A stretch of DNA of 41,915 bases from Alishewanella jeotgali KCTC 22429 (GTDB lineage: Bacteria; Pseudomonadota; Gammaproteobacteria; Enterobacterales; Alteromonadaceae). Position 1 is the first letter of the stretch, and every line of letters starts with the position of its first letter. The DNA is taken from positions 74,304 through 116,218 of the forward strand of contig NZ_AHTH01000023.1 of the NCBI RefSeq assembly GCF_000245735.1, in the 5' to 3' direction. Under the pieces are notes generated by a model. It was given only the letters and a program-made list of their open reading frames with translations. It was not told the origin of the DNA and did no database searches. The position numbers and the translations under genes were made by a program. Below are positions 12,152-22,120 of the stretch, piece by piece.

Positions 12152-12167
12152 TGGCATTGTTTGTGCT
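12152..12167 (+). promoter_or_regulatory. Sigma-54 (-24/-12) promoter of nirB
   Basis: TGGCAT-TGTTT-GTGCT against the consensus TGGCAC-N5-TTGCW: invariant GG and GC are present with exactly 10 bases between them, and 9 of 11 defined positions match. The predicted start is about 12178, only a few bases before the first leader hairpin. This leaves a leader of about 175 nt before nirB. Confidence 0.65.
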
Positions 12168-12183
12168 TTTATTTTGTCAACAA

Positions 12184-12243
12184 CACCAGCGCAGACTGGT
12201 GCTGAACCTAATTTGAATTGAGGTGTAAAGCTCTGCTTTGCAC
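12184..12243 (+). other. nirB leader hairpins
   Basis: Two hairpins lie at the 5' end of the predicted leader. One is CACCAG-CGCAGA-CTGGTG (12184-12201; 6-bp stem, 6-nt loop). The other is GTGTAAAG-CTCTG-CTTTGCAC (12223-12243; 8 bp including one G-U, 5-nt loop), which abuts the ANTAR-type hairpin. Neither loop shows the A1/G4 rule, so which one acts as the first half of a two-hairpin ANTAR target is unclear. Confidence 0.5.
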
Positions 12244-12257
12244 GGGCAACGAGGCCC
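12244..12257 (+). promoter_or_regulatory. ANTAR-type antiterminator hairpin in the nirB leader
   Basis: GGGC-AACGAG-GCCC: a 4-bp stem closing a hexanucleotide loop with A at position 1 and G at position 4, the hallmark of RNA hairpins bound by ANTAR proteins. Its 3' strand (GCCC, 12254-12257) is also the first four bases of the terminator's 5' arm, so the two structures exclude each other. The likely ligand is the NIT-ANTAR protein encoded at 19218-20495. Confidence 0.72.
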
Positions 12258-12300
12258 ACGACAAAACTGCCTGCTGGCAGCTTAGTCGTGGGCTTTTTTT
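12254..12300 (+). terminator. Leader attenuator of the nirB operon
   Basis: GCCCACGAC (12254-12262) pairs with GTCGTGGGC (12285-12293), followed by seven T (12294-12300). The loop contains a second small stem CTGCC/GGCAG. It lies 53 bp before the nirB start and after the promoter, so it is a conditional terminator rather than the end of a gene. Confidence 0.88.
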
Positions 12301-12353
12301 ATCGGCAAAATTTGTTGTTCGCTTCGGCTAACAAGGGCTTTAAGGACTTAGAC

Positions 12354-14930
12354 ATGCAGCAGACAAAACACATTCTGGTGATTGGCAATGGTATGGTGGG
12401 GCACCATTTTGTTGAGCAACTGCGCGCCAAAGACCCACAGGCAAACATTACCGTGTTGTGTGGTGAGGTGCGGCTGGCCTACGACCGGGTGCATTTATCC
12501 GGCTACTTCAGCGGCACCAGTGCAGAGCAACTTGCTTTAACGACAGAAGAGGCTTATCAGGCGGCCAATATTCAATACCGCCTAAATTGCTGGGTGGAGC
12601 AAATCGACCGTGACCAGCAGTTGGTCATAACCCGTCAGGGCGGGCAGTTTTACTATGACAAGCTGGTGCTGGCAACCGGTTCCTATGCTTTTGTACCACC
12701 AATTCCCGGTAATGAGCAGCCGCATTGTCTGGTGTACCGTACGCTGCAGGATTTAGATGCGATAGCGCAAAGTGCGGCCCAAAGTAAAGTCGGTGTGGTG
12801 ATAGGCGGTGGTTTGCTCGGGCTGGAAGCAGCAAATGCGCTAAAACAACTCGGCTTACAAACTCATGTGGTGGAATTTGCACCACAGCTAATGGCTGTGC
12901 AGCTGGATCAGGCTGGCGGCCAGATGTTAAGCCAGAAAATTACCGAGCTGGGTGTGCAGGTACATACCGGCAAAGCCACTCAGGCGATAGTTGCTGGCGC
13001 AGAGTGCCGTTATCAGTTGCAGTTTGCCGATGGTGAAAGTTTAGAGACAGATTTAGTGCTGTTTTCCGCTGGCATCCGGCCTTATGACCAGTTGGCGCGC
13101 AGCTGTGGTTTAGCTGTGGGGGATCGGGGCGGAATAGTCGTTAACGATCAGTGCCAGACGTCTGACCCACATATTTATGCCATAGGTGAATGTGCCTTAT
13201 GGCAGCAAAAGATTTTTGGTCTGGTAGCACCTGGCTATCAGATGGCGCGTGTGGTGGTAAGCCAACTGACAGCTGGCGGGCTGAGTTTTACCGGCGCTGA
13301 TATGAGCACCAAGCTAAAACTGCTGGGTGTGGAAGTGGGTTCTATTGGCGATGCCCATGCCAGAACGCCTGGCGCGTTAAGTTATGTGTTTACCGATCCG
13401 CGTGCTCAGGTCTACAAAAAAATGGTGGTAAGCAAAGACGGCAAACGCCTGCTGGGTGCTGTGCTGGTCGGCGATACCAGCAACTACGACAGTCTGCTGC
13501 AATACGCTTTAAACGATATGTTGCTGCCAAAACAGCCGGAGCAACTGATTTTACCTGCAGCGTCCGGCGCAGCTGTGGCCGCTTTAACTTTACCCAACAG
13601 CGCCACCATTTGTTCCTGCCATAACGTGGCTAAAGGCGACATAGTGGCGGCTATGGACAGTGGTTGCTGCGATTTAGCCAGTATCAAAAGCTGCACTAAG
13701 GCCAGTACAGGTTGTGGTGGTTGCACTGCTTTGCTCAAATCCGTAGTGGATGACGAGTTAAAAAGCCGTGGGGTTGAGGTGAAAAATCACCTCTGTGAAC
13801 ACTTTGCTTATTCCCGTCAGGAATTGCTGCATTTAGTTCAGGTGGGCGGTATTAAAACCTTTGCCGAACTGTTAAGCCGCCACGGTCAGGGTTTGGGCTG
13901 TGATATCTGTAAGCCGACTGTGGGCTCTATTCTGGCGTCGAGCTGGAATGATTATGTGCTGAAAAAACCTCATGTGGGTTTGCAGGACACCAACGATACC
14001 TTTCTCGCCAATATGCAAAAAGACGGTTCTTATTCAGTGGTGCCGCGTATTGCCGGTGGCGAAATTACCGCAGAAAAACTGCTGGTGATAGGTCAGGTCG
14101 CTTTGGATTTTAATCTCTATACCAAAATTACTGGTGGGCAGCGTATCGACTTATTTGGCGCCCGTTTAGAGCAGTTGCCTGCCATTTGGCAGCGTTTGGT
14201 TGATGCGGGTTTTGAGACCGGCCATGCCTATGGCAAGTCGCTGCGTACAGTCAAATCTTGTGTCGGCAGCACCTGGTGTCGTTATGGTGTGCAGGACAGT
14301 GTCGGTCAGGCCATAGCTATCGAAAACCGCTATAAAGGTTTAAGGGCACCCCACAAAATCAAAATGGCAGTGTCGGGTTGTACCCGCGAATGTGCTGAAG
14401 CGCAAAGCAAAGACATTGGCATTATTGCCACCGAAAACGGCTGGAACCTGTATGTCTGCGGTAACGGCGGTATGAGGCCACGCCACGCCGACTTATTTGC
14501 CACCGACCTCGATACCGACACTTTAATCCGCTACATAGACCGCATTCTGATGTTTTACATCAAAACTGCCGACCGTTTGCAGCGCACCTCGGTCTGGCTG
14601 GAAAAGCTGGACGGCGGGCTGGAGTATCTGCGCCAAGTGATTATTGACGATCAACTGGGTATAGCGCAGGAGTTGGAAAACCAGATGGCTGCGCTGGTGA
14701 ATACCTATGCCTGCGAATGGCAGGCCACGCTGGACGACCCGCAGGCGCTGAAACGTTTCCGCCAGTTTGTTAACAGCCCGCAGCCGGATCCCAATATCGT
14801 TTTTGTCGAAGAACGGGCGCAGATCCGCCCGGCGACAGCAGAAGAAAAACGCCGGTGGCAGCAACAAATTCCTGTTACCCAGCTTTCTACGTCAGAGCTG
14901 CCTGCCACAGCTTTAGTAGAGGAGAAATAA
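12354..14930 (+). CDS. nirB: NADH-dependent nitrite reductase large subunit
   Basis: Cytoplasmic siroheme enzyme reducing nitrite to ammonium with NAD(P)H. 858 residues (847 in E. coli). In order: FAD/NAD-binding domains (GNGMVG near residue 11; VVIGGGLLGLEAA), a BFD-like [2Fe-2S] region with Cys420 and Cys422 plus the later CTKASTGCGGC, a ferredoxin-like half-domain, and the siroheme/[4Fe-4S] site (Cys636, Cys642, Cys676, Cys680; C-X5-C and C-X3-C). The start at ATG 12354 has AAGGA at 12342-12346; an open frame from 12288 begins inside the terminator and is not the start. The nirD gene follows after 1 bp. Expression is probably controlled by sigma-54 and leader antitermination. Confidence 0.97.
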   Translation: MQQTKHILVIGNGMVGHHFVEQLRAKDPQANITVLCGEVRLAYDRVHLSGYFSGTSAEQLALTTEEAYQAANIQYRLNCWVEQIDRDQQLVITRQGGQFYYDKLVLATGSYAFVPPIPGNEQPHCLVYRTLQDLDAIAQSAAQSKVGVVIGGGLLGLEAANALKQLGLQTHVVEFAPQLMAVQLDQAGGQMLSQKITELGVQVHTGKATQAIVAGAECRYQLQFADGESLETDLVLFSAGIRPYDQLARSCGLAVGDRGGIVVNDQCQTSDPHIYAIGECALWQQKIFGLVAPGYQMARVVVSQLTAGGLSFTGADMSTKLKLLGVEVGSIGDAHARTPGALSYVFTDPRAQVYKKMVVSKDGKRLLGAVLVGDTSNYDSLLQYALNDMLLPKQPEQLILPAASGAAVAALTLPNSATICSCHNVAKGDIVAAMDSGCCDLASIKSCTKASTGCGGCTALLKSVVDDELKSRGVEVKNHLCEHFAYSRQELLHLVQVGGIKTFAELLSRHGQGLGCDICKPTVGSILASSWNDYVLKKPHVGLQDTNDTFLANMQKDGSYSVVPRIAGGEITAEKLLVIGQVALDFNLYTKITGGQRIDLFGARLEQLPAIWQRLVDAGFETGHAYGKSLRTVKSCVGSTWCRYGVQDSVGQAIAIENRYKGLRAPHKIKMAVSGCTRECAEAQSKDIGIIATENGWNLYVCGNGGMRPRHADLFATDLDTDTLIRYIDRILMFYIKTADRLQRTSVWLEKLDGGLEYLRQVIIDDQLGIAQELENQMAALVNTYACEWQATLDDPQALKRFRQFVNSPQPDPNIVFVEERAQIRPATAEEKRRWQQQIPVTQLSTSELPATALVEEK

Positions 14931-14931
14931 T

Positions 14932-15291
14932 ATGGCCTGGACTGATATTTGTGCTTATGAAGATTTAGTTGAAAACAGCGGTATTTGCGCTTTGTTCAAT
15001 GGCTGCCAGGTGGCGGTGTTTTTGCTGCAACAGCAGGGCAGGCAGGAACTGTATGCTATTGGCAATTACGATCCTGTCGGCGGCGCTAATGTTTTGTCGC
15101 GGGGCATTGTTGGCTCTGTCGGTGAGCAGATAGTAGTGGCTTCACCTTTGTATAAACAGCACTTTAACCTGAGCACAGGCCAGTGCTTAGAACAACCTGA
15201 AGTGGTGCTGCCTGTCTATGCGGTGAAACTGCAGCATGGCAGGGTATGGCTGCATGCCCAACAACAAAAGCAACAGGCATCAGCTGCCTGA
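14932..15291 (+). CDS. nirD: Nitrite reductase small subunit
   Basis: 119-residue Rieske-fold small subunit of the NirBD reductase. The fold is suggested by DICAYEDLVENSGICALFNGCQVAVF and the segment NYDPVGGANVLSRGIVG. The Cys/His cluster ligands of true Rieske proteins are absent, as expected for NirD. One base separates it from nirB, so it is co-translated. Confidence 0.93.
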   Translation: MAWTDICAYEDLVENSGICALFNGCQVAVFLLQQQGRQELYAIGNYDPVGGANVLSRGIVGSVGEQIVVASPLYKQHFNLSTGQCLEQPEVVLPVYAVKLQHGRVWLHAQQQKQQASAA

Positions 15292-15355: not shown

Positions 15356-16228
15356 ATGATGAGTGTTATAAGCTACTTTCTGCGTTCACCACTGGGCCGC
15401 TCAGTTATATCAGGCTGGAACTGGCGTGACGCTGACACCGGCCAGTTAAAACCCGCAGGCAAAGGCCGGGTGGTACTAATTGGTGCCGGGCCTGGTGATC
15501 CTGAGCTGTTAACGGTTAAAGCGCAGCGTTTATTGCAGCAGGCCGATGTGCTGTTGTTTGATAGTTTGGTTCCGGCTGAGCTGTTGGCGATAGCGCCACG
15601 GCGTTGCAAAAAAGTATTTGTTGGTAAAAGAGCGGGCCGCCATGCTATGTCGCAGCACGACATAAACCAGTTGCTGGTAAAGTATGGCCAGCAAGGTGGT
15701 TTGGTGGTGCGGTTAAAAGGTGGCGACCCGGCGATTTTTGGCCGGGTATCAGAAGAAGCTGCAGCGTTGCAACAAGCCGGTATTGCCTTTGCCATAGTGC
15801 CGGGCGTGACCAGTGCCTGCGCGGCTTCGGCCTATTGTGGTATTCCGCTTACCGCCCGCGGCAGTGCCACGTCAGTGCAGTTTTTAACCGCGCAGTTTGC
15901 CGACCCTGCCAAACAGCCGGACTGGTCTGGTTATCAGTACAGAGCCAATGGCTCTAACCCGACGCTGGTGGTCTATATGGGCTTAAACCGTTTGCAGCAA
16001 TTGTGTGCTGGTTTAGTGTCAGTTGGCTGGCCGGACAATACCGCTATAGCGCTGCTGGATCAGGTCAGTACTGCCCAGCAACAGCAACTGCAGGGCACGC
16101 TGGCTGATATTGACCAGCGTTTAGCGGCCAATCCGCTATGCGGGCCGACATTGATTGTGATTGGCGAGGTGCTACACCAGCGGATGGCGGTAGATTTAAG
16201 CCTGCTGCAGGCTAAGGTTGTTGCTTAG
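15356..16228 (+). CDS. cobA: Uroporphyrinogen-III C-methyltransferase
   Basis: SAM-dependent methyltransferase (SUMT) converting uroporphyrinogen III to precorrin-2, the first step to the siroheme needed by NirB. 290 residues. Motifs: VVLIGAGPGDPELLTVKA, VVRLKGGDPAIFGR, PGVTSACAASAYCGIPLTARG and a late TLIVIGEVL. About 37 residues precede the first beta strand, an extension not seen in minimal CobA. It is not a CysG-type dehydrogenase domain, and its role is unknown. ATG 15356 or the adjacent ATG 15359 may be used. It follows nirD by 64 bp. Its stop codon interlocks with that of the convergent kinase gene. Confidence 0.93.
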   Translation: MMSVISYFLRSPLGRSVISGWNWRDADTGQLKPAGKGRVVLIGAGPGDPELLTVKAQRLLQQADVLLFDSLVPAELLAIAPRRCKKVFVGKRAGRHAMSQHDINQLLVKYGQQGGLVVRLKGGDPAIFGRVSEEAAALQQAGIAFAIVPGVTSACAASAYCGIPLTARGSATSVQFLTAQFADPAKQPDWSGYQYRANGSNPTLVVYMGLNRLQQLCAGLVSVGWPDNTAIALLDQVSTAQQQQLQGTLADIDQRLAANPLCGPTLIVIGEVLHQRMAVDLSLLQAKVVA

Positions 16229-17922
16229 TTTGCCAGCAACCATAATATAATCAGGCATTGCAGCAGGCAGCAACTTTGCCAGAACCACAGCGGATGAAGT
16301 TCTATCAGGCTTTGCGGTGCCTGAAACTTCGCATTGGGATGGCGTAAATCATATAAAAACTCAGACAGGGCCTGATAACGCAGGCTGGGGTCGGGCTGCA
16401 AGGCTTTTTCCAGTGTCCGGTCCAGCCAGGCGGGTAGCTCGCTATCGGCAGATAACACAGACTGATACTGTAGTTTTTTCTGCGCTTTTAAACTTCTGCG
16501 CCGGGCAACCTCAGGCCCGTAAGGAAAGCGCCCCGACAGCAACTGATAGGTTAATACAGCCAGTGAGTACAGATCTGAGCGCTCACTGCCTGGTGCACCT
16601 AAAAAATACTCGGGTGCGCAATATAAGGCAGTGCCGGGAATATCGCCGGCCACTTCGTCATCTGGCTGTAAGCCGGCCAGCCGTGCTGCACCAAAGTCGA
16701 TAATTTTAACGCTGCCCTGTGGCGTAACCATGATATTTTCCGGTCGTAAATCCTGATGCAATATTTCGCTGCGGTGCAAAGCCTGTAAGCCTTTGCCAAT
16801 TTGTTCTGTCAGCGTGCGTATTTGTTCCAGAGTGGCTTTGGGGTGGTCGAGTTGCCATTGGCGCAGGGTTTGGCCATCAATATATTCAAATAGCGTATAC
16901 AGCGCTGTGCGTGGTCTGTTGATGCTGGCCGGGCGCAATACATAAGCACTGTTAACCCGTTTTGCTATCCATTCTTCGCGCAACAGCCGCTCCAGATAAT
17001 CGGGCTGTTCGGCCAAATCAATCGACGGTGCTTTTAGCACCAGCAGTTTTGCTGTTTCGCTGTCCTGCACCAGATACACATGGCTGCGGCTGCTTTGTTG
17101 CAGTGGCCGTATTATCTGCAGGCCGTCAAGGGTATCGCCTTGTTGCAATAGCGGTGGCAATGGCAGTTGCTGATCGATACAAGCCGGTAAACTGCTGTCT
17201 GCCGGCAGGGCGTTAATACGCACCAGTTGCAGCGTAATATTATCTTTGCTGCCAGCGGCTAAAGCGGCGTCGGCCAGTTGCTGTGCCAGCGTTGATAAAT
17301 CTGCTTGTTCTGGTCCAAGTAACGCCATTAGCTGCGGCTGTGGTAACACTTCAAATAAGCCATCTGTCGCCAGCAGAAATACATCCCCTGCCAGCAATGG
17401 CAGGCTGTGGTAATCGGGTTCCAGCACTGCGCCGGCTCCAAGCGCCTGGCTTAAAAAACTGCTGCTGCCACGCCATACCCGGTGATCCCGCGTCAGTTGT
17501 TCCAGTTGCCGGTTACGCCACAGATAAATCCGGCTGTCACCAACATGCAGCAAATGTGCATGGCGTTGCTTTAGGATCAGCGCACTAAAAGTGCAGACAT
17601 AACCTTTATCCGGATCGGCAGCAAAAGGGCCATTGCGGTTTTGTGCATATAACCAGTTATGGCTGGCCTTTAACACCTGCAAGGCGGCATGCGGCACCGA
17701 CCAGGCATCGCTGGTACAGTAGTAGTCGCTGAGAAAGCTTTTCACTGCGGTTTCGCTGGCAATCTGGCTAACGGTACTGGTGCTGATACCATCGGCCACC
17801 GCCAGCACTATGCCTTTGTTACTCAGCTGTGGTTCTGTGGGCAGGCAAGCGCCAAACCAATCCTGGTTCAGCGTTTTGCAACCTGCACTACTGTACTGGC
17901 CGATGGATACTTGCAATGACAT
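16225..17922 (-). CDS. Bifunctional PP2C phosphatase / Ser-Thr kinase, membrane-anchored
   Basis: 565 residues in three parts. Residues 1-235 are a PP2C-type phosphatase with all metal-binding Asp motifs (NQD21, VADG44-45, ATDG187-188, SKDN227-228). Residues about 265-525 are a Hanks-type kinase with Lys297, Glu316/317, HQD391LRPEN, DFG409-411, APE436-438 and Asp450. Residues about 544-563 form a C-terminal hydrophobic helix, so both catalytic domains would face the cytoplasm. Oddities: the glycine-rich loop (RPLQQSSRSHVYLV) has no glycine, and the usual catalytic-loop HRDLK is HQDLR. It starts 2 bp after the FNT channel gene on the same strand. The target is unknown; the channel or a nitrate-uptake protein is a guess from context. 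Confidence 0.9.
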   Translation of the reverse strand: MSLQVSIGQYSSAGCKTLNQDWFGACLPTEPQLSNKGIVLAVADGISTSTVSQIASETAVKSFLSDYYCTSDAWSVPHAALQVLKASHNWLYAQNRNGPFAADPDKGYVCTFSALILKQRHAHLLHVGDSRIYLWRNRQLEQLTRDHRVWRGSSSFLSQALGAGAVLEPDYHSLPLLAGDVFLLATDGLFEVLPQPQLMALLGPEQADLSTLAQQLADAALAAGSKDNITLQLVRINALPADSSLPACIDQQLPLPPLLQQGDTLDGLQIIRPLQQSSRSHVYLVQDSETAKLLVLKAPSIDLAEQPDYLERLLREEWIAKRVNSAYVLRPASINRPRTALYTLFEYIDGQTLRQWQLDHPKATLEQIRTLTEQIGKGLQALHRSEILHQDLRPENIMVTPQGSVKIIDFGAARLAGLQPDDEVAGDIPGTALYCAPEYFLGAPGSERSDLYSLAVLTYQLLSGRFPYGPEVARRRSLKAQKKLQYQSVLSADSELPAWLDRTLEKALQPDPSLRYQALSEFLYDLRHPNAKFQAPQSLIELHPLWFWQSCCLLQCLIILWLLAN

Positions 17923-17924
17923 GG

Positions 17925-18779
17925 TCAGACTTTGGCCAGATCTGCAGTGTTGCGGCTTGCTGCGGTCGTCACCAGATTACGTTTAGGCGCAGTTTTATAG
18001 TGCGTGCTGTACAGCGTCAGGCCGGTAAAAGCCAAACCGCCAACCAGATTGCCAAGCGCCGTAGGTATTTCGTTCCAGATCATATAATCCATAATGGAGA
18101 AATCACCGCCCATCATCATGGCGAAAGGAAATAAAAACATATTCACCACCGAGTGCTCAAAACCCATAAAAAAGAACAACATAATTGGCATCCACATGGC
18201 AATGGCTTTGCCGCTGACATGGGTGGAGATCATCGCGCCAACCACCCCCATCGACACCATCCAGTTACATAACATGCCACCCAGAAAAATGGTCAGCCAG
18301 CCCGCAGTGCCATGTTCGGCATAACCTAAGGTGCGCGCCTCACCGACATCTGCCAGTTTGTCAGCCACAGCCCCCGGCTCGGTATTAAAGCCCATCGTTA
18401 GCACAAACGCCATCATGGCTGCCACTGTTAAAGCGCCAACAAAGTTACCGATAAATACCAGCCCCCAGTTGCGTAGCACCCCCTTTACCGTAACACCGGG
18501 GCGGCGGTCCAGTAAGGCCAGCGGTGTCAGTACAAAAACACCGGTCAGCAAATCAAAGCCCATCAGGTACAACATAATAAAACCGACCGGGAACAACATA
18601 GAGCCCACTAAAAAGGAGCCCGTTTGCACGGCAACAGTTATCGCAAATACCGCCGCCAATGCCAGAATCGCGCCCGCCATATAAGAGCGGATCAGGGTAT
18701 CGCGGGTAGACATAAAAATTTTTGCTTCGCCGGCATCGACCATTTTGGTCACAAACTCGGCTGGAACTAAATAAGCCAT
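17925..18779 (-). CDS. nirC: Formate/nitrite transporter family channel (NirC-like)
   Basis: 284-residue inner-membrane protein of the FNT family, pentameric channels for small anions such as formate and nitrite. At least six hydrophobic segments are visible. Family landmarks are GGMLCNWMVSMGVVGAM, the central histidine motif GFEHSVVNMF and NEIPTALGNLVGG. Sequence alone does not fix the substrate; the neighbours (nirBD, cobA, NIT-ANTAR regulator) argue for nitrite import. First gene of a two-gene operon with the kinase/phosphatase. Expression is predicted to need the sigma-54 promoter at 18941-18956 and read-through of the leader terminator. Confidence 0.88.
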   Translation of the reverse strand: MAYLVPAEFVTKMVDAGEAKIFMSTRDTLIRSYMAGAILALAAVFAITVAVQTGSFLVGSMLFPVGFIMLYLMGFDLLTGVFVLTPLALLDRRPGVTVKGVLRNWGLVFIGNFVGALTVAAMMAFVLTMGFNTEPGAVADKLADVGEARTLGYAEHGTAGWLTIFLGGMLCNWMVSMGVVGAMISTHVSGKAIAMWMPIMLFFFMGFEHSVVNMFLFPFAMMMGGDFSIMDYMIWNEIPTALGNLVGGLAFTGLTLYSTHYKTAPKRNLVTTAASRNTADLAKV

Positions 18780-18833
18780 GGGTTCACCTTTTTCCGTTAT
18801 GTTTAGTTATTCAGCTGCTGTTTTTTGCACAAC

Positions 18834-18885
18834 AAAAAAGGCGTCCGGATCATGCTGTGTTATCAGCTGATCACGGGACGCCTTT
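18834..18885 (-). terminator. Leader attenuator of the FNT-kinase operon
   Basis: On the minus strand AAAGGCGTCC (18885-18876) pairs with GGACGCCTTT (18846-18837), and the T-run spans 18839-18834. The enclosed loop is about 29 nt and can itself fold (GCTG-ATAACA-CAGC). It lies upstream of the channel start codon and downstream of the predicted promoter, matching the nirB leader design. Confidence 0.85.
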
Positions 18886-18889
18886 GTCC
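18876..18889 (-). promoter_or_regulatory. ANTAR-type antiterminator hairpin in the FNT leader
   Basis: Minus-strand RNA GGAC-AAAGGC-GUCC: a 4-bp stem with a hexaloop having A at position 1 and G at position 4. Its loop and 3' strand are exactly the 5' arm of the terminator, so the two folds are mutually exclusive. Confidence 0.7.
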
Positions 18890-18906
18890 TGAAACTGTTT
18901 TTTGTC

Positions 18907-18927
18907 CGGAGGTGCTTAACACCTCCG
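18907..18927 (-). other. 5' hairpin of the FNT leader
   Basis: Minus strand CGGAGGTG-TTAAG-CACCTCCG: a perfect 8-bp stem with a 5-nt loop, starting a few bases after the predicted transcription start. Position and size parallel the 8-bp hairpin in the nirB leader. The loop lacks A1/G4. Confidence 0.55.
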
Positions 18928-18940
18928 CCGCATTTAACTA

Positions 18941-18956
18941 GGCAACTTTGATGCCA
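18941..18956 (-). promoter_or_regulatory. Sigma-54 promoter of the FNT-kinase operon
   Basis: Minus strand TGGCAT-CAAAG-TTGCC against TGGCAC-N5-TTGCW: GG and GC are 10 bases apart, and only the sixth and last positions differ. The predicted start is near 18930, giving a 5' leader of about 150 nt. Confidence 0.7.
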
Positions 18957-19217: not shown

Positions 19218-20495
19218 ATGAACCCTTCGACCGCACAGTTTTTGCTGGCTGCAAAACAGGCAGAAATAAAAGCCCTGTTACAGCTTTCGGCTAACTGTCA
19301 GCTGGTAACCAGCATTAGCGAACTGGTGCATCAGCTGCAGCGCGAGCGGGGCATCAGCAATATTTTTCTCGCTTCAGGCTGTGAGCTGTTTGCCCGCCAA
19401 CGCCAGCAGCAATTGCAGCACAGCACCAGCGCAGAGCTGCAATTACGCACAGCACTTGAGCAGCAGTATTTACACGCACCGCAGCCGTGTAACAGCAGCC
19501 GTTTACTCAGCGGTATTGCACTGGCATTGCAGGGCATGGATCATCTGGCGGAACTGCGCGAACAAATACACCAGCAAAAAATAACCCCCTTACAAGCCAC
19601 CGAAGCCTATAGCCGCTTGATTGCCGCCTGGCTGGCGGTGGTGTTGGAGTCGGCTGATCTGGCCTGTGACGCCAGCATTACCCGCGTACTGGTTGCCTTG
19701 TTTAACCTACTGCAAACCAAAGAATATGCCGGCCAGGAAAGGGCATGGGGTGCTATGGGGTTTGCCTCCGGTAAGGTAAGTACAGAGCTGGCTGAGCGTT
19801 TATTATTACTGCAACAGGCCCAGCAACACAGCGCTGCTGTTTTTCTGGAATTTGCCAGCAGCGCACAACAGCAGCAGTGGCAACAGCTGGAGCAAAGCGC
19901 CGCAGCTAAACAGCTGCAACAACTGAGAACTATGCTGCAGCAGCTACCGGGCACGGCAACGCTGGTGCCGGCAGTCAGTGATCTTTGGTATCAGTTTGCT
20001 ACCGATCGTATGGACGCGATGCACCAGTTAATGGCATTGCTGACAGCTGATTTGCAGCAACTCACCGCTGCTACTGTAACTGCCGCTCAACAGCAGTTGC
20101 AGCAGCACCGGCATAAGCTAACCGAGCTGACTGCCTTGCCAGCCGGTTCAGGTTTAACTTTATTAATCGATCCCAGCATGCCGGGTTTATATGGCGCCTC
20201 GGTTGTACCGCAAACGACCAACGAGCACGGCATCACGGCACCCGGCCGCTCGTTTTATCAGCTGTTGTCGGAGCAGGCGCAGCATATCCGCCAGATCCAG
20301 GCGGAGTTATGTGACGCCCGCCGCGCTATTACCGAGCAAAAACGGATCGACCGCGCCAAGCTGCTGCTGATGCAGTATAAAAAACTCAGCGAAGAACAGG
20401 CCTATCGCCAGTTACAGCAAAGTGCAATGCAGCAGCAATGCCGTATTGCGGATGTAGCGGAAGCCGTGGTGAAAGCTTTGCTGCAGGGGGGCTAG
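19218..20495 (+). CDS. nasR: NasR-like nitrate/nitrite-responsive antiterminator (NIT-ANTAR)
   Basis: 425 residues, close to Klebsiella NasR (about 393). Residues about 25-340 are a helical NIT sensor with the family motifs LVHQLQRERGISNIFLASG (Arg42 and Arg44 in the ligand-side helix region) and QERAWGAMGFASG. Residues 368-425 are an ANTAR RNA-binding domain (AITEQKRIDRAKLLLMQYKK, then SEEQAYRQLQQSAM). NasR-type proteins bind leader RNA hairpins when nitrate or nitrite is bound, allowing read-through. Matching targets are present at 12244-12257 and 18876-18889. An in-frame TAA at 19212 precludes an upstream start. No clear Shine-Dalgarno sequence precedes ATG 19218, so expression may be low. 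The sensor is very Gln-rich. Confidence 0.88.
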   Translation: MNPSTAQFLLAAKQAEIKALLQLSANCQLVTSISELVHQLQRERGISNIFLASGCELFARQRQQQLQHSTSAELQLRTALEQQYLHAPQPCNSSRLLSGIALALQGMDHLAELREQIHQQKITPLQATEAYSRLIAAWLAVVLESADLACDASITRVLVALFNLLQTKEYAGQERAWGAMGFASGKVSTELAERLLLLQQAQQHSAAVFLEFASSAQQQQWQQLEQSAAAKQLQQLRTMLQQLPGTATLVPAVSDLWYQFATDRMDAMHQLMALLTADLQQLTAATVTAAQQQLQQHRHKLTELTALPAGSGLTLLIDPSMPGLYGASVVPQTTNEHGITAPGRSFYQLLSEQAQHIRQIQAELCDARRAITEQKRIDRAKLLLMQYKKLSEEQAYRQLQQSAMQQQCRIADVAEAVVKALLQGG

Positions 20496-20846: not shown

Positions 20847-20872
20847 ATGGGGTCAGAGTACTCTGACCCCAT
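20847..20872. repeat. 26-bp perfect palindrome (REP-like)
   Basis: Two 13-bp arms, ATGGGGTCAGAGT and ACTCTGACCCCAT, meet with no spacer. The GGGGTCAGAGT...CTGACCCC pattern resembles short dispersed palindromes associated with REP-type transposases. No transposase gene is nearby. It lies between the fadA end and the tusA start, where it could also act as an operator or mRNA hairpin for tusA. Confidence 0.6.

Positions 20873-20938: not shown

Positions 20939-22120
<1,182 letters not shown>

Follow-up and report, generated by a model that had tools for sequence, protein, structure and literature searches.

On the minus strand of the window (the whole 41,915-nt stretch of DNA that was analysed), a gene for a formate/nitrite transporter (FNT)-family channel heads a unit whose second gene, encoding a protein with both PP2C phosphatase and Ser/Thr kinase domains, starts just 2 nt after the end of FNT (Table 1). 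The FNT family match is clear, even though the score against the NCBIfam NirC model falls short of the cut-off (45.5 versus 293 bits); among relatives of solved structure, the protein is nearer to algal LCIA (92 bits) than to FocA (61 bits) or to the entry named NirC (32 bits). Judging from its context, the substrate would be nitrite. The motifs visible in the second protein (DG, GDSR and TDG, and LVLK, HQDLRPEN and DFG) are presumably those expected of a PP2C phosphatase and of a kinase, respectively. Such a gene lies directly after FNT, on the same strand, in 79 of 80 loci (the best 80 of 592), and we found no publication on the pair in the literature searched.

The plus-strand neighbour encodes a NIT domain followed by an ANTAR domain, the arrangement of NasR, and aligns with the NasR structure over both parts (PDB code: 4akk; 117 bits). 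It accounts for the one PF03861 match in the whole genome and is, therefore, the sole ANTAR protein. The only PF00384 match in the genome is NarG; the nitrite handled by the regulon is therefore probably external or respiratory in origin, and not the product of an assimilatory nitrate reductase. Between the NIT-ANTAR gene and fadA lies a perfect palindrome, ATGGGGTCAGAGTACTCTGACCCCAT (20847–20872), which we presume to be similar to the ends of mobile elements.

Table 1. Positions of the genes and leader elements within the window
Feature	Position	Strand	Basis
FNT-family channel (formate/nitrite transporter), first gene of unit	17925..18779	−	PF01226, 217.9 bits
PP2C phosphatase/Ser-Thr kinase protein	16225..17922	−	PF13672/PF00481 and PF00069
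NIT-ANTAR protein, NasR homologue	19218..20495	+	PF08376, 159 bits; PF03861, 61.5 bits
σ54-type promoter, TGGCAT-N5-TTGC (−24/−12)	18942..18956	−	Sequence match; promoter predicted
5′-terminal hairpin, 8 bp, loop UUAAG	18907..18927	−	Sequence; occupies ANTAR P1 position
ANTAR hairpin P2, GGAC(AAAGGC)GUCC, A at loop position 1, G at 4	18876..18889	−	Sequence
Intrinsic terminator: 5′ arm 18885–18876, 3′ arm 18846–18837, T-run 18839–18834	18834..18885	−	Sequence, folding, covariation
Companion nirBD leader	12152..12300	+	Sequence, scan, folding
σ54-like site of nirBD leader	12152..12166	+	
5′ hairpin of nirBD leader	12184..12201	+	
Second hairpin of nirBD leader	about 12223..12243	+	
P2 of nirBD leader, GGGC(AACGAG)GCCC	12244..12257	+	
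Terminator of nirBD leader	12251..12300	+	
nirB and nirD	12288..15291	+	Large-subunit homology starting near residue 27

Architecture of the FNT leader

Read along the minus strand from 18956 to 18834, the region upstream of FNT comprises a σ54-type promoter sequence, an 8-bp hairpin, a linker, the hairpin P2 and an intrinsic terminator, after which FNT follows. The −24/−12 spacing would place the transcript start at ~18930. In the first hairpin, 18927–18920 pair with 18914–18907, and the fold of 18906–18930 has an energy of −15.8 kcal/mol. A sequence-only reading had drawn attention to this leader, and its coordinates, the 8-bp hairpin, the GGAC-AAAGGC-GUCC hexaloop and the re-use of its loop and 3′ strand in the terminator are all to be read in the sequence: the 5′ arm of the terminator, AAAGGCGUCC, is exactly the P2 loop plus the P2 3′ strand. 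Of the hairpin pair that it described, P2 is an ANTAR hexaloop, but the first hairpin carries the pentaloop UUAAG and has no A1/G4; an A1/G4 hexaloop with at least three pairs is absent from this part of the leader.

The terminator folds with −28.4 kcal/mol (z −7.6), and the region 18815–18935 with −50 kcal/mol (RNAfold; z −6.9). In nascent RNA ending before the 3′ arm of the terminator, P2 is dominant, with pair probabilities of 0.94–1.00; for the complete leader, the energy of the terminator fold is −45.8 kcal/mol versus −39.1 kcal/mol with P2 forced, an advantage of ~7 kcal/mol. This predicted balance is an arrangement that a stabilizing protein could tip. Set beside the dual-hexaloop ANTAR motif (Ramesh et al. 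2012), the leader has both the A1/G4 hexaloop of P2 and the overlap by which P2 excludes an intrinsic terminator, and an ANTAR protein is encoded in the same genome; an upstream P1 with an A1/G4 hexaloop was found in neither leader of the window when at least three pairs were sought. The predicted promoter ahead of the leader, a σ54-type sequence match that the sequence-only reading does not mention, corresponds to a feature of the NalA type.

Both strands of the window were scanned for an A1/G4 hexaloop on a stem of at least 4 pairs that overlaps the 5′ arm of a terminator. Two sites were obtained, namely, the FNT leader and one before nirB at 12248. As the sequence-only reading had held, chance is unlikely to account for both: 40 dinucleotide shuffles of the window gave 0.1 sites per window, and none was seen in 2000 shuffles of either intergenic region. 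It had also placed the two leaders on either side of the NIT-ANTAR gene, which is not the case: they are found ~0.3 and 7 kb from it, both toward lower coordinates. Its view that the FNT leader repeats the nirB design is borne out for P2, the terminator overlap and the σ54-like site, which are common to both, but not beyond this, since the nirB leader has one extra 5′ hairpin and is absent among the matches of R1, a covariance model trained on FNT leaders (150 of 1402 candidates in the genome scored). The sole Rfam match near the nirB leader is Lacto-rpoB (E 1.8). The first GTG of the nirB reading frame (12288) falls within the terminator, and translation probably starts near 12366, at the onset of homology.

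Terminator-like sites are common here (27 in 12 kb versus 15.9 expected in shuffles), as they would be if the hairpins merely marked the end of another transcription unit and there were no regulated leader. The placement of the site makes such a reading extremely improbable: it is situated downstream of the σ54-like site and ahead of the FNT start, in the orientation of FNT, and the T-run ends 18–117 nt before FNT in relatives (53 loci). Likewise, a terminator belonging to a neighbouring gene is ruled out by the direction of the T-run, toward FNT, together with a gap of 2 kb to the nearest upstream minus-strand gene, fadA, which ends at 20939.

Conservation of the leader and its co-occurrence with ANTAR genes

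Leaders were compared across 104 FNT loci: 24 in 22 of 98 relatives (own genome included), the others being the best 80 of 592 in named genomes (the closest listed are Rheinheimera), with at least four genomes occurring in both sets and so counted twice. The comparison, which the sequence-only reading had suggested as a check, went in its favour, as the P2 hairpin and T-run stand directly before FNT in 57 of the 104 loci (including the best 80 of 592) and both mutually exclusive helices covary. When a loop heptamer followed by a T-run was chosen with no demand for pairing, 59 of the 104 loci (same scope) were selected; 57 of these 59 have a P2 stem of at least three pairs, and 54 also have a terminator run of at least 6. 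Earlier detectors had given 42 of 104 (strict A1 and pairing) and 53 of 104 (second detector), again including the best 80 of 592. The alignment consists of the rows of the second detector (48 distinct), which were chosen with a demand for pairing, and its covariation counts therefore lean toward pairing; across the 48 leaders, 4 of 5 pairs in P2 and 8 of 11 in the terminator have changed on both sides, in each case well above slid versions. A σ54-like site scoring at least 8 of 10 accompanies 49 of 53 FNT leaders, whereas for random 110-mers taken from these loci the value is 69 of 1060.

The P2 loops include AAAGGC, AACGGC, AATGGC, AAAGAC and similar. Position 1 is G (GACGGC) in ten loci (L033, L051, L062, L078, L086, L087, L090, L094, L100 and L102), seven of them from Marinobacter, and an ANTAR gene is present in nine of the ten genomes. 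The L030 loop has A instead of G at position 4. Upstream of FNT in L081, a Marinobacter bin, the P2 core is intact and no T-run follows.

Among the best 80 of 592, 24 of the 34 leaderless FNT genes share the strand of nirB and lie 400–700 nt downstream of it, and nirB itself has such a leader in 20 of the 22 nirB–FNT loci evaluated (by a scan without shuffle control). The two exceptions, both isolate genomes (L038 and L101), lack an ANTAR match and keep a σ54-like site before nirB. An ANTAR-type leader thus precedes the FNT-kinase unit, directly or via nirB, in 66 of 80 loci (the best 80 of 592). In L067 (5467–5907) and L099 (5438–5956), a cyanase gene precedes a leaderless FNT, which suggests that this branch of FNT serves other anions or a different nitrogen source.

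The presence of the leader was also set against that of ANTAR genes, in counts that all ignore kinship. In the relatives, an ANTAR gene is found in each of the 11 genomes with the leader (8 being of the window's genus, own genome included) and in 3 of the 11 that have FNT without it. Matches to R1 at E ≤0.001 coincide with an ANTAR gene in 13 of 14 genomes, versus 29 of 98 overall. For the best 80 of 592, the values are 45 of 46 genomes with an FNT leader versus 26 of 34 without, and, when nirB leaders are counted, 65 of 66 versus 5 of 12 evaluable (two loci left aside; Fisher p 2 × 10−6, kinship ignored). Nine genomes of the best 80 of 592 lack an ANTAR match, and some of these absences may be gaps, because six are metagenome bins by title. 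A leader without an ANTAR match is seen in L078, a metagenome bin; conversely, five genomes (L039, L067, L081, L095 and L099) have an ANTAR gene and no leader at FNT or at the nirB of the locus. Eight genomes have neither an ANTAR match nor an FNT leader, and all seven of those examined (the isolates being L038, L069 and L101) keep a σ54-like site, 67–168 nt before the first gene versus a median of 169 nt in 49 leader-bearing loci. This pattern fits a joint loss of attenuator and antiterminator.

These data bear on two further explanations. The leader could be a constitutive attenuator or a small RNA, ending at the terminator mostly regardless of nitrite, with the short RNA as the product; such a reading would accord with the strong terminator and with the typing of P11 by Rfam as a gene (sRNA), not a cis-regulator. 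We consider it improbable, given that the P2 hexaloop and its terminator overlap are conserved with covariation and that the presence of the leader tracks that of the ANTAR gene (the position of the leader before FNT is no evidence by itself, because the loci were chosen by FNT). Still less probable is control by another factor acting on the leader, be it a different antiterminator, the ribosome or a small molecule, with no role for the NIT-ANTAR protein. Here, a first hairpin that is not an ANTAR loop and the L078 leader have to be weighed against the ANTAR co-occurrence and the divergent NIT-ANTAR gene, found no more than 1.2 kb from FNT in 19 of 80 loci (the best 80 of 592).

Related ANTAR systems and the first hairpin

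The closest parallel is found on Pseudomonas nirBD, where NalA, NasT and σ54/NtrC are established in the part of the review cited (PMC12830290): as proposed for FNT, a σ54 promoter is combined with a leader terminator that an ANTAR protein overrides. A nitrite reductase regulon is common to both, and 20 Pseudomonas-type loci (among the best 80 of 592) have FNT and the kinase behind a leader-bearing nirB. The window differs in having a separate leader directly before FNT, a one-protein NIT-ANTAR regulator in place of NasS–NasT, and a first hairpin that is not A1/G4. The P2 core GGACAAAGGCGUCC is identical in the window leader and in the consensus of P11 (RF00625), which we take to be NalA; the FNT leader scores 24.7 bits against P11, below the gathering threshold of 70. 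Its P2 core is also near that of narK RNA (RF03032), again sub-threshold (18.3 versus 43.2 bits), the model of which covers a σ54-like site, a first hairpin and GACAAAGACGUC, as in the window leader. In contrast to the window, a canonical hexaloop precedes P2 in 6 of 8 narK matches by script and in 8 of 8 by eye; the script took the upstream hairpin for P2 in L160, L165, L168 and L170, and L164, L166 and L167 were not counted. The narK RNA matches (L160–L170) occur in 10 of 185 genomes of the class, with two over the cut-off; nine of the ten have an ANTAR gene, and the tenth match, L167, looks like coding sequence. The Rfam narK RNA, for which we found no publication in the literature searched, would thereby gain a likely explanation, since it looks like a σ54 site with an ANTAR leader. 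In the Rfam scan of the window, nothing exceeded threshold, the sub-threshold P11 and narK matches being informative; those to the RhlA thermometer, Srn266, Atu_C8 and mir families, also sub-threshold, were taken as chance.

The NasR/nasF leader of Klebsiella likewise has a NIT-ANTAR regulator and nitrate/nitrite antitermination, as well as a P2 with a terminal C:G pair and an A1/G4 loop overlapping a terminator. However, its two-hairpin motif fits the SELEX consensus (as given in the cited part of PMC7496416), whereas in the window P2 alone does, and the operon differs. In the eut leaders of Enterococcus, the targets of EutV, an ANTAR hexaloop P2 is exclusive with a terminator, as in the window; signal and genes differ.

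The first hairpin is, therefore, the point on which the window leader departs from the known motif, which comprises two hexaloops with A1 and G4 and was recovered in the same form by NasR SELEX (PMC7496416, in the part cited). According to the same source, the in vitro affinity of NasR for P2 on its own was roughly one-tenth of that for both hairpins (about 12 µM versus 1 µM). For EutV, the cited part of PMC8934654 reports that both hexaloops are needed in vivo, although in the structure the protein holds a single loop at any one time, and raises as an open question the need of ANTAR antitermination for a pair of hairpins if these are gripped singly. In loci that include the best 80 of 592, a canonical first hexaloop occurs in 11 of 49 distinct FNT leaders (versus 0.9 expected in mononucleotide shuffles), in 4 of 22 leaders beside a NIT-ANTAR gene (4 of 23 with L030, itself without one) and in 12 of 33 nirB leaders, the latter falling to 0 of 12 for Rheinheimera and Alteromonas-type loci (the choice of P2 being doubtful in L083). 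Judged from the sequences, many Pseudomonas-type and narK leaders do possess a genuine canonical P1, which is absent from the leaders of the window, where a hairpin at the predicted 5′ end of the RNA appears to replace it. AGAGGU was considered as a general P1 in the Rheinheimera clade and rejected: it has four pairs only in L006 and L008, where it overlaps the stronger 8-bp hairpin, and is absent with four pairs in L002, L004, L005, L007, L009 and L028.

Proposed antitermination of FNT

We consider it very probable that the unit encoding FNT and the kinase/phosphatase lies behind a σ54-transcribed, ANTAR-controlled attenuator of the NalA kind. The observed basis consists of the sequence elements, the exclusive folds, their conservation with covariation and the co-occurrence with ANTAR genes; we infer the promoter, the ligand, the binding, the read-through and the cotranscription. 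Antitermination of NasR/NasT type is well supported, if by indirect means, because the fold is conserved and covarying, it co-occurs with ANTAR genes, and the single ANTAR protein of the genome is the adjacent NasR homologue. Against it stand the non-canonical first hairpin, the leader of L078 without an ANTAR match, the five ANTAR genomes without a leader and the A at position 4 in L030.

In this mechanism, without nitrate or nitrite, the leader RNA would fold into the terminator and transcription would stop. Nitrate or nitrite bound by the NIT domain of the neighbouring protein would cause its ANTAR domain to grip P2; because the loop and 3′ strand of P2 are also part of the terminator, the latter would be unable to form, and RNA polymerase would read into FNT and the kinase/phosphatase gene. 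The nirBD leader would be switched likewise, so that nitrite entry, nitrite reduction and a signalling enzyme would be induced together.

More tentatively, and with rather less than even confidence, we suggest that the FNT and nirBD leaders are natural single-hexaloop antiterminators, with P2 as the only hairpin through which the NIT-ANTAR protein acts and with a different role for the 5′ hairpin (5′ protection, pausing or spacing), and that the same signal induces the PP2C/kinase protein, which may control FNT or nitrogen flow. It is possible that a non-canonical P1 is still read by the protein. We found no one-hexaloop form among nitrite leaders in the literature searched; leaders in which P2 alone is canonical, beside a NasR homologue, make the two-hairpin question directly testable.

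The FNT leader is real, conserved and functionally well placed; it belongs to a kind already known, and what differs is the single canonical hexaloop. The sequence-only reading had regarded ANTAR control of transport and of a signalling enzyme as undescribed. The first of these is not new, as ANTAR RNA matches upstream of nitrate/nitrite transporters and nitrite reductase are already listed in the cited part of Ramesh et al. (PMC3369931), whereas for a kinase/phosphatase we likewise found no description in the literature searched. The leader links this apparently uncharacterized protein to nitrite supply in many gammaproteobacteria, and thereby points to a condition that induces it and, in the FNT channel, to a probable partner.

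A search of the own genome with R1 (150 of 1402 candidates scored) returned the FNT leader as the top match (52 bits, E 5 × 10−9). In the relatives (best 56 candidates per genome), R1 gave 19 matches at E ≤0.01 in 19 genomes, 11 of them before FNT. Four others (L152, L153, L156 and L159) lie beside an ANTAR gene and not FNT, and four short ones (L154, L155, L157 and L158) were taken as chance. The same view was taken of a further target in the own genome, at C62 (25 bits, E 0.04, the rest being weaker), which lies between genes that we presume, from their translations, to be asparaginase-like and gamma-glutamyltransferase-like.
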